From Exiguobacterium acetylicum DSM 20416 (GTDB taxonomy: Bacteria > Bacillota > Bacilli > Exiguobacteriales > Exiguobacteriaceae), in the NCBI RefSeq assembly GCF_000702605.1, contig NZ_JNIR01000001.1:610501-674500 (forward strand): a stretch of 64,000 nucleotides of DNA. The letters run 5' to 3'. Below the pieces are notes generated by a model, which was given only the letters and a program-made list of their open reading frames with translations, ran no database searches and was not told the DNA's origin. Of the stretch, positions 44,125-46,778 are shown in pieces. Position 1 is the first letter of the stretch. Each line of letters begins with the position of its first letter. A program made the translations under genes and the position numbers.

Positions 44125-45958
44125 GTGGGAATCATTCGTGAATTATCCGATAGTTTAGCGAACCGGATCGCGGCGGGAGAAGTCGTCGAACGACCAGCGT
44201 CGGTCGTCAAGGAACTGGTCGAGAACGCACTTGATGCCGGTGCGACCCAAATCGATGTCGAACTCGAAGAAGCTGGAATGAAACGGATGACGATCCGCGA
44301 CAACGGACACGGGTTTTACCCGGATGACGCTGAACTGGCTTTCGTCCGTCACGCGACGAGTAAGATTAAGGACGAGCATGACTTGTTCCGAATCAAGACA
44401 CTTGGTTTTCGCGGAGAGGCACTTGCCTCGATCGCGTCTGTCAGTAAAGTGACGTTGAAGACGAAACGTGAGGACGCGGAAGGGATTCAAGTGACGCTTG
44501 AGTACGGGACGGTCGTCGAACGGACGCCAGCAGCAATGAACCGGGGAACGGAATTGACGGTCGAGCATCTCTTCTTCAACACACCGGCTCGATTGAAGTA
44601 TTTGAAGACGACGCATACGGAGCTTGCGGCAATCACGGACGTGTTGAACCGGATGGCGTTCGCCCATCCGGACGTCAAGCTTCGGGCTACCCATGAAGGG
44701 AAGACGTTGATTCAGACGAACGGATCAGGAGACGTCCGGCAAGCGCTGGCGAGCGTCTACGGTCATCAAACGATCCAAGGGACGTTGGTCGCAAAAGGTG
44801 CGAATGCCGATTATCAATTGACGTGTCATCTCGTCAAACCGGAAGTGACCCGTGCCTCAAAGAATTACATCACGTTGATTTTGAATGGACGTTCGGTCAA
44901 AAAACTTCGCCCTGACGCAAGCGGTCTTGAACGGTTACCATACGCTCTTACCGATTGGGCGGTATCCGATTGCAGTCATCGAGGTGACGATGGATCCACT
45001 CCTGATTGATGTCAACGTCCACCCGGCGAAACGAGAAGTCCGTCTTTCAAAAGAGATGGAGCTCTGCCAGTTGATCCAGGAGACAATCAAGATGACGCTC
45101 AGCCGGGAGACGCTGATTCCGAAAGTGACGCCACCGAAACCAAAAAAGGATCCGAGTAGCCAGGAAAAACTTGATTTTTCTTACGTCGCGGAACCAGTCG
45201 AAGAAACGTCATCGCGAGCGGTCTGGAATTATCCGATTCCGAAAAAGCCGCAAGAGGACGATCGACCACCTGTAGAGAAATCATTACCGTTTAGCAACGA
45301 TGATGATCTGTTCGAGCCCATCGAGCCGGTCAAGCAGGAGTTTGCTGAACCGATTGAGGAACCACCCGCGCGTCCGCGCTTTCCGCATCTCGACGTCATC
45401 GGTCAACTCCATTCGTCCTATATCGTCTGTGCCGGGGAAGACGGGATGTATATGATTGATCAACATGCAGCACAGGAACGGATCAAATACGAGACGTATA
45501 AAGTCATGTTCGGTCGACCACCGGAACAACGACAGCAATTGCTCTTGCCGTATACGTTTGAAATCTCGTCGGATGATATGAAACGGATGGATGAAGTCCT
45601 TCCGTTGCTAAAAGACGTCGGCATCGAGTTTGAAGCATTCGGTCCACAAAGCTTCATCGTCCGAGAAGTTCCGACGTGGTTCCCATCGCATCGGCAGGAA
45701 GAGACGATTCAGGAATTACTCGATGAAGCCTTGATGAAGCGAAAAATCGATCTTGAGACGTACCGGGAAGATGCCGCCATCATGATGGCATGTAAAAAAT
45801 CAATCAAGGCGAATCATCCGTTGAACGATGAGATGATGCGCCGGTTGATTGACGATCTAGCGAAGACGGAGATGCCGTTCACGTGTCCACACGGACGCCC
45901 GGTCATCATCGAATGGACGACGTATGAACTTGAGAAGTTATTCAAACGGGTCATGTAA
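44125..45958 (+). pseudogene. mutL: DNA mismatch repair protein MutL, interrupted by a frameshift
   Basis: The first frame (44125-45009) holds the GHKL ATPase: ENALDAGATQIDVE, DNGHGF and TLGFRGEALASI. After residue 258 it leaves the family at [12 protein letters not shown]. The second frame (to 45958) resumes exactly there with [18 protein letters not shown], then [11 protein letters not shown], a Pro/Glu-rich linker and the C-terminal endonuclease motif [12 protein letters not shown] with [11 protein letters not shown]. The junction is an A6 run at 44899-44904; with five A the frame is continuous and 610 residues long. Only the ATPase half would be made as written. The start is GTG 44125. 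Confidence 0.9.
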
Positions 45959-46000
45959 TCATGAAGAGGAGACGATCCCATTCAGGTGTCGTCTCAGATT

Positions 46001-46206
46001 AAAAAGGGAGCTGACTCAAAAGTCAGTTTCTGCAAAGAATGACGTGTCACACGCAACTCCTACAGGAAAAAGCGCATTTATGCGCTGTCAGAGACAAACA
46101 AGACCCGCTTTCCTGCTTGAATGAAGCAGGAAAGCGGGTCTTGTGTCTCGCCTGAGGAAAGGGCATGAACAGACGCGTCATTCTTTATTGGAATCAGCTC
46201 CTTTTT
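46001..46206. repeat. MITE-like element of nested inverted repeats
   Basis: The ends are near-perfect inverted repeats: AAAAAGGGAGCTGACTC on the left and GAATCAGCTCCTTTTT on the right, one base insertion and one mismatch. A second pair lies inside: AAAGAATGACGTGTC (46034-46048) against GACGCGTCATTCTTT (46172-46186), 14 of 15 matching. The centre is a hairpin with a perfect 21-bp stem at 46098-46144, and AGCGCA-TTTA-TGCGCT (46071-46086) is another stem. No coding frame is credible and no target-site duplication is obvious. It lies in a 430-base gap between mutL and lrgA. It looks like a non-autonomous mobile or regulatory repeat. Confidence 0.7.
46091..46149. repeat. Central hairpin of the repeat-like element
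   Basis: A 21-base arm (46098-46118) pairs perfectly with 46124-46144 around a GAATG loop; GAGACA/TGTCTC extends the stem further with a small bulge. No T-run follows on either strand, so it is not a simple terminator. Confidence 0.85.
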
Positions 46207-46388
46207 GTTCGTCTCGAATCATTTGTTGTACTGATACACGATTGACTAGTTTTTGTTTGTGCTATTACAAAAAAAGGTGTGGATTTGCATGAGAACGGTT
46301 ACTTCAGTTGATTAACTAGATTTCATTGATTGTTGAAGGAAAGAGGCGGATAATAAGACCCGAAACTGTTAACAAGGGGACCTTTATC
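46207..46388. other. Spacer before lrgA
   Basis: After the repeat-like element this AT-rich stretch should carry the lrgAB promoter. The best candidate (TTGACT at 46242-46247 with TATTAC at 46263-46268) has a short 15-base spacer. Nothing else is evident except the ribosome binding site AAGGGGA before the ATG. Confidence 0.4.
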
Positions 46389-46778
46389 ATGTTGTCACGC
46401 ATCATGCGTATCATTCAAATCATTGCTCAAATCGCACTTATTTTTTGTTTTTCACTCAGTGGGGACTGGGTGAGCGAAACTTTCCAGTTACCCTTACCCG
46501 GTAACATCATCGGCTTGATTCTTCTGTACGTGACGTTAAAAAGTCGACTGCTTCCTCTCGTCGCTGTCGAACGGGGCGGAACCTTTCTGCTGTTCGTCAT
46601 GCCGTTATTCTTTGTTCCGGCACTGTCTGGAATCATGGATTATACAGCATTCCTTCGAACATCTGGTCTTCAAGTCCTATTAATCGTCGTCGTCAGCAGC
46701 CTCCTGACGTTAGTCGGCTCAGCGTATATCGTCGACCGCTTAGCACACCGGAAAGAGGCGGTGACACCACATGAGTGA
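46389..46778 (+). CDS. CidA/LrgA family holin-like protein
   Basis: The 129-residue protein with four predicted membrane segments belongs to the CidA/LrgA family (Pfam LrgA; signature LPLPGNIIGLILLYVTL). Such proteins work with an LrgB/CidB partner, encoded next with an eight-base overlap, and are linked to murein hydrolase control, autolysis or pyruvate/acetate-related transport. The frame is open from 46326, but AAGGGGA fixes the ATG at 46389. Confidence 0.9.
   Translation: MLSRIMRIIQIIAQIALIFCFSLSGDWVSETFQLPLPGNIIGLILLYVTLKSRLLPLVAVERGGTFLLFVMPLFFVPALSGIMDYTAFLRTSGLQVLLIVVVSSLLTLVGSAYIVDRLAHRKEAVTPHE

Follow-up and report, generated by a model that had tools for sequence, protein, structure and literature searches.

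The window, a stretch of 64,000 nucleotides from Exiguobacterium acetylicum DSM 20416, contains a gap between the stop codon of mutL (position 45958) and lrgA, in which nested inverted repeats and a strong hairpin occupy positions 46002-46206. The start of lrgA was taken as the ATG at position 46389; the listed frame, which matches Pfam LrgA, begins at an upstream TTG (46326). A search with LrgA matched three Exiguobacterium records, E. indicum HHS 31, a MAG and sp. Leaf196, with protein identities of 92-98%. In the window, mutL (44125-45958) is split into two overlapping frames of 294 and 357 aa. Against E. indicum the split corresponds to one alignment gap, and a single 626-codon open frame is present in E. 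indicum, L064 and L065. The split could represent a real mutator or a sequencing error, and the two look alike here.

The features of the element are listed in Table 1. The window copy begins with GGAGCTGACTC at position 46007 and ends with GAATCAGCTCC, which finishes at position 46201. Its outer arms (19 nt) match at 84%, its inner arms (15 nt) at 93%, and the arms of the central hairpin (26 nt; 46093-46118 and 46124-46149) at 92%. RNA folding of positions 45995-46215 gave -109.5 kcal/mol for the forward strand and -106.9 kcal/mol for the reverse strand (z of -11.55 and -10.85, respectively), and none of the 200 shuffles folded as well on either strand. When DNA folding parameters were applied to positions 46002-46206, z was -10.24. 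An earlier note on this DNA had described nested inverted repeats and a central hairpin in the mutL-lrgA gap, and both were confirmed by the repeat search and the folding (z about -11).

Table 1. Features of the element in the mutL-lrgA gap (window positions)
Feature	Position	Strand	Basis or remark
Window copy of the IS1182-type miniature element	46007..46201	+	195 bp, terminal repeat to terminal repeat; aligned with other copies
Left outer arm (A-tract and left terminal inverted repeat)	46002..46020	+	Inverted-repeat search; copy alignment
Right outer arm (right terminal inverted repeat and T-tract)	46188..46206	-	Inverted-repeat search; copy alignment
Inner (subterminal) inverted repeat, left	46034..46048	+	Inverted-repeat search
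Inner (subterminal) inverted repeat, right	46172..46186	-	Inverted-repeat search
Conserved folded core (outer helices, small hairpin, long hairpin)	46049..46168	+	Covariance model R1, 125.5 bits, positions 1-121; score not independent, the window copy being among the 29 training sequences
Small core hairpin (AGCGCA..TGCGCT)	46071..46086	+	RNA fold; helix 3 of the covariation structure
Long central core hairpin	46093..46149	+	Inverted-repeat search; helices 4 and 5 of the covariation structure
Position of the extra hairpin module of about 50 nt, absent here	46021..46033	.	Module in 10 of 14 aligned copies, by eye
CAGATTA flank, similar to the left end (CAGATTGTAGAC) of the longer nested family	45995..46001	+	By eye

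Copies of the element and the folded core

A DNA search of the window's genome (G000) gave 42 matches, many of which were pieces or reverse matches of one copy. With the covariance model, 20 distinct full cores of more than 100 bits were found among the 23 own-genome loci that were read. The element was matched in all 19 genomes of the genus by DNA search, and in none of the 19 genomes of the sister genus; the plasmid and phage collections contained no match to it. Alignment of 14 copies gave a common form that consists, in order, of the terminal repeat GAGGCTGACTCAAAAGTCAG, a hairpin module, the inner repeat AAAGAATGACG, the core and a mirror-image right end. The window copy is shorter than this common form. 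By this alignment it is a truncated copy, which is without the hairpin module and has imperfect ends.

The earlier note had likened the feature to a MITE or a palindromic intergenic repeat, and considered transcription into a structured RNA possible. It had proposed a search for multiple copies, empty sites and target duplications, and had named a single copy, absence from relatives and lack of structural conservation as grounds for giving the idea up. The likeness has held: the element is present in multiple copies, element-free alleles occur at its sites in close relatives, the core covaries, and an IS1182-family parent was found. The point to correct concerns target duplications, of which none was detected at the 16 short-element sites analyzed below, where the element occupies the place of a hairpin instead. 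Like a MITE, the element is short and non-coding, carries terminal inverted repeats (imperfect in the window copy) and is present in many copies, and its presence or absence varied between relatives in 21 site pairs. No published description of the element or its repeats was found in the titles and abstract openings of the open-licence literature under Exiguobacterium repeats or IS1182, IS1182 with MITE, repeats of Bacillus relatives, or the string gactcctgcgggaa.

The core is about 120 nt in length. Across 29 cores, 93.9% of the cells were paired in a five-helix structure with 43 pairs, and 31-52% were paired when the structure was slid along the alignment. Changes on both sides were observed in 26 pairs as compared with 13.1 in shuffles, of which 0 of 500 were as high; because the 29 sequences were selected by hand out of 58, with the bracket structure drawn up once the RNAalifold result was available, these covariation counts lean towards the structure. 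Among the unpaired positions, AC, AAA, CG and AAG (8-9, 20-22, 101-102 and 111-113 in the numbering of the first sequence) show either no variation or a conservation of at least 90%. When the window stretch and the loci L019, L060 and L021 were compared with Rfam 15, only matches below the gathering score were obtained.

The model found cores (E <= 1e-4) in 38 of 398 Bacilli genomes, namely 19 of 19 in the genus, 11 of 19 in the sister genus and 8 further genomes from six genera; stricter filters were used in this search and nine candidates were scored per genome, and the match numbers are not copy numbers. A looser pattern was detected in 13 of 200 Bacilli genomes, two of which belong to the genus, and the reversed pattern in none. 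By eye, 16 of the 20 looser-pattern loci were without IS1182-like ends up to a distance of 180 nt. In another family, two genomes (L314/L323 and L309/L319) have the core flanked by IS1182-like terminal repeats, which are of two additional types. In the window's own genome, seven copies have the core without IS1182 ends within 130 nt, by eye.

Repeats of the form GACTCCTGCGGGAA..GGAAAGCG occur in several Bacilli families (L306-L325), with 13 copies in one genome, and we found no name for them. A core of 118.3 bits, which reads like the stand-alone copy L019, is located at positions 1248-1371 of L305, a 19-kb IMG/VR contig. It is a long shot that the core is an undescribed, Bacilli-wide structured nucleic acid, carried by IS1182-type elements for its action in hairpin-targeted transposition or in the control of this process, for example as an RNA or a folded strand bound by the transposase. 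If this were the case, such DDE elements would depend on a structured non-coding module.

Target sites and genomic placement

To compare target sites, G000 was paired with the close genome G001, and one G016 site was added. The 31 G001 copies that were fetched are part of that genome's set: 7 have an orthologous copy in G000, 17 correspond to a G000 site that is free of the element, and the places of the other 7 were not found in the stretches of G000 that were used. The G016 copy L130 and the G000 copies L008, L009 and L012 completed the 21 pairs, in each of which the element is present in one genome only. L002/L170, which has a further difference of about 1.8 kb, and L013/L172, which belongs to a longer family, were left out.

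In 16 of the 21 pairs, the element-free allele possesses an inverted repeat, usually terminator-like, at the site. From each of these hairpins, one arm stretch of 9-12 bases, entered by hand, was searched for in the filled allele, and it was missing from all 16. At L116/L222, AAAATGAC[AGGATGGACCGCGGTCCATCCT]GTCATTTTT was exchanged for AAAATGAC[element]GTCATTTTT. The exchange was exact on both sides in four of the 16 pairs (L097, L104, L109 and L116). At L100, L102, L106 and L107, the terminal repeat is damaged or missing and the boundaries are approximate; L100 and L107 also hold additional sequence, which in L107 derives from the longer nested family. Fourteen of the 16 replaced hairpins were in the strongest 0.35% of the 50-nt windows of their 19-20 kb stretch, in a ranking for which the L100, L106, L107 and L008 segments were hand-entered as the hairpin inside the segment, so that the windows of these four were placed around a hairpin recognised beforehand. 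The L118 hairpin was moderate (2.2% of 50-nt windows), and the L012 hairpin was weak (68% of windows fold as well). Loss of the target inverted repeat with no target duplication, the pattern of inverted-repeat-replacing insertion, was thus observed in 16 of the 21 pairs, and not at the window site itself.

Five of the 21 pairs do not fit this pattern: L114 and four pairs of the longer family. Among the latter, the terminator hairpin is retained at L105 (with L214), split at L123 and duplicated as a 22-bp hairpin at L110 (with L217), and L130 is unclear. The longer nested family (L010, L013, L105, L110, L122, L123, L126 and L130) contains the core and has ends like CAGATTGTAGAC / GTCTTCAGTCTC, some members with one end seen. 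At L114/L221, the allele of the window's genome is a mini-hairpin composed of the terminal repeats only, which perhaps represents the remains of a deleted element.

The direction of change was read at two sites, A and B, across 19 genomes. At site A, 17 of the 19 genomes match across without the element, seven close genomes have a homologous hairpin in common, and the element is present only in G001 and G016. At site B, 15 of the 19 match across, the hairpin is common to the same seven genomes, and the element is present in G001. G016 carries at site B a complete IS1182-type IS, whose ends are at that hairpin; G014 matches across and has an IS1182-type IS remnant by eye, and G003 and G005 match in two pieces. 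Given this distribution across the 19 genomes, the hairpin would most simply be ancestral at both sites. Site B is most simply read as one terminator replaced by two different IS1182-type elements.

At mutL-lrgA, lrgA was matched in 18 of the 19 genus genomes, and the element occupies the orthologous place in seven (G000, G001, G002, G009, G010, G011 and G016). In G003, G004, G008, G012, G013, G014 and G018, an ordinary terminator-like hairpin was seen by eye, and a divergent copy of the core is present in G007 and G015. Among the element-free genomes, G006 and G017 are the nearest; the short hairpin they possess is repeat-like, similar to the right end of the longer nested family, and is not a plain ancestral terminator. 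The replaced hairpin of the window site was not seen in any close relative. Since the CAGATTA flank is similar to the left end of that longer family, the mutL-lrgA copy may be a composite. Presumably it arrived by the same hairpin replacement.

Genomic placement was analyzed for 63 distinct places from G000, G001 and G016 (65 context rows, of which L018 and L020 overlap), which are a mix of elements, stand-alone cores and partial copies. The background consisted of neighbouring pairs in the G000 stretches, and frames were called mechanically. Convergent open frames flanked 41 of the 63 places as compared with 61 of 366 background pairs (Fisher p 2e-14), whereas divergent frames flanked 1 of the 63 places as compared with 61 of 366 (p 7e-4). 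After orthologous copies were collapsed, 33 of 50 places were convergent (p 1.6e-12); the collapsing also merged the neighbours L009 and L013, by which the sole divergent row was lost, and when it is counted in, 33 of 51 are convergent and 1 of 51 is divergent. In 64 of the 65 rows, the 3' end of a gene faces the repeat, with a median distance of 11 bp. These 3' ends and the convergent excess fit insertion at terminators followed by a later terminator role, and we infer that the element acts as a terminator after insertion.

Related IS1182-family insertion sequences

A pattern search with the terminal repeat revealed closely spaced pairs of ends in the divergent genome G005, in which seven short copies of 194-243 bp were read. 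G005 also carries four IS copies at contig ends, which are identical over 1969 bases and terminate in GAGGGTGACTCAAAAG. This IS encodes a transposase of 527 aa, which is present in six copies at 100% identity and matches NCBIfam transpos_IS1182 (390.6 bits vs the cut-off of 270) and Pfam DDE_Tnp_1_6/DUF772. The terminal repeat of the IS is near-identical to that of the miniature element. The intact IS copies break off at contig ends inside the right-end palindrome, and one intact copy still contains the first part of the core (34.2 bits, positions 1-92), which the contig end truncates. Only the internally deleted copies L150 and L153 have a complete right end; both termini are retained in them, and the whole core lies at the right one (72.1 and 75.6 bits).

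The miniature element thus has its ends and subterminal sequence in common with an IS that encodes an IS1182-family transposase, as is expected of a MITE. Since the ends are near-identical and the deleted G005 copies carry the core at their right end, the short element appears to derive from an IS1182-family IS by internal deletion. The earlier note had named no family; judged from these sequences, the element is now assigned as an IS1182-family MITE-like derivative.

The G005 copies L147, L149, L151 and L154 are all cut off by contig ends within the right-end palindrome, at an identical base. With contig ends falling there, assemblies may hide the element.

In the window's genome, a search for the cognate transposase, which is usual for a MITE and not required, gave only two distant IS1182-like matches (21% identity). 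In G001, which has many copies of the element, no IS1182-like transposase was found at E 1e-3.

Four IS1182-type ISs from the same bacterial family (L177, L178, L181 and L183) have GAGGCTGGGACATAACT or a close variant at their ends, and their terminal repeat begins with GAGGCTG like that of the element. A hairpin lies inside each end at these four loci, as read by eye, and their transposases are 39-42% identical to that of G005. One GAGGCTGGGACATAACT-ended IS occupies the same terminator hairpin as a miniature element. No core was found when the four ISs were scanned for it.

At L136, an IS3-family IS sits inside a copy of the element, and L137, in another genome, is similar by its frames only. 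These two loci were considered as an autonomous parent IS and rejected, as the L136 transposase is of the IS3 family and lies inside a copy, and L137 is alike by frames only.

Proposed explanation and comparison with known systems

We consider it quite probable that the window feature is a truncated non-autonomous element of the IS1182 family, of a kind that inserts in place of terminator hairpins. Comparison of genomes points to this through the multi-copy family, the terminal repeat and core common to the IS, the replacement, the polarity at two sites, the placement at 3' ends and the covarying core. Transposition itself, and the transposase that moved the copies of this clade, we infer. Counted against the explanation are the scarcity of IS1182-like transposases in the window's genome and in G001, the weak L012 and moderate L118 hairpins, an exact exchange in no more than 4 of the 16 pairs, the five pairs that do not fit, and the repeat-like hairpin of G006 and G017. 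An IS1182-type transposase would act on GAGGCTGACTCAAAA-type terminal repeats and thereby move the miniature elements. Insertion would take place at the hairpin of an intrinsic terminator, and the element would take the place of this hairpin with no target duplication, while much of the flanking A- and T-tracts would be kept. As a long inverted repeat between these tracts, the element could serve as a new, probably bidirectional, terminator, so that its insertion would be tolerable.

The folded core could itself be under selection, as a structured RNA or a folded single-strand DNA with its own function that is merely carried by IS1182-type elements. The excess of double-sided pair changes over the shuffles, the conserved unpaired positions, the seven own-genome cores without IS1182 ends and the related cores in other Bacilli speak for such selection. 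However, core copies occupy the 3' ends of a wide variety of genes and are variably present among close genomes, no Rfam match reached the threshold, inverted repeats of mobile elements can covary for reasons at the DNA level, and both alignment and structure were chosen by us; we regard selection on the core as possible but doubtful. A conventional insertion with target duplication, after which the old hairpin was lost, would find a parallel in the longer nested family with its duplicated (L110/L217) and retained (L105/L214) hairpins. This order of events is improbable for the short element, in which the tested arm was kept in 0 of the 16 filled alleles and four exchanges were exact on both sides, and IS1272 is reported to replace its target likewise (PMC5678879).

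The element is palindromic, intergenic and multi-copy, as would be a REP-like palindrome moved by a RAYT or an IS200-type Y1 transposase. Y1_Tnp, however, had no match in the window's genome and was found in 9 of the 19 genus genomes, mostly in frames of 137-140 aa, whereas the element is present in 19 of 19, and no core was detected in the 17 Y1_Tnp loci (of 19) that were scanned. As no Y1 transposase gene was associated with the repeats, the RAYT/REP system was dropped as very improbable. It is scarcely credible that the feature is a solitary, oversized terminator whose hairpin arms expanded by local duplication; its position downstream of mutL and its bounding A- and T-tracts would suit a terminator, but homologous copies exist at many other loci and genomes, and the copy number already refutes a lone one.

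Among the intergenic palindromic repeats of Gram-positive bacteria, BOX, RUP and bcr are modular, foldable and multi-copy, and by their general description the element resembles them. For the insertion of an IS1182-family element in place of terminator hairpins, which we favor, the mechanism would be known in kind, as the pattern matches the 'inverted-repeat-replacing' transposition published for IS1272. According to the reports on IS1272, this IS1182-family IS inserts at stem-loops, the stem-loop is lost and no duplication is formed (Furi et al. 2016, PMC4923244; Wan et al. 2017, PMC5678879), and several of the target stem-loops are confirmed terminators (PMC4923244). IStrons (PMC4227781) are reported to carry a structured RNA module on an IS, and in this respect the core-bearing element would be similar to them.

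Here, the same hairpin-replacing outcome is seen for a gene-less element, in another genus and at many terminators, with ancestral states that can be read in relatives. The element would provide a comparative system in which to study the recognition of hairpins by a DDE transposase and the reason for the absence of target duplications, and it is a case of terminators exchanged by a mobile element. The covarying core, which has no Rfam match here and occurs in several Bacilli families, is a separate question. IS1272 and TnSha1 of staphylococci resemble the element in their hairpin targets, in the deletion or replacement of the stem-loop and in having no target duplication. The staphylococcal elements are a complete IS or a transposon that carries a passenger gene, whereas the Exiguobacterium element is a gene-less miniature with a folded core and many copies per genome.
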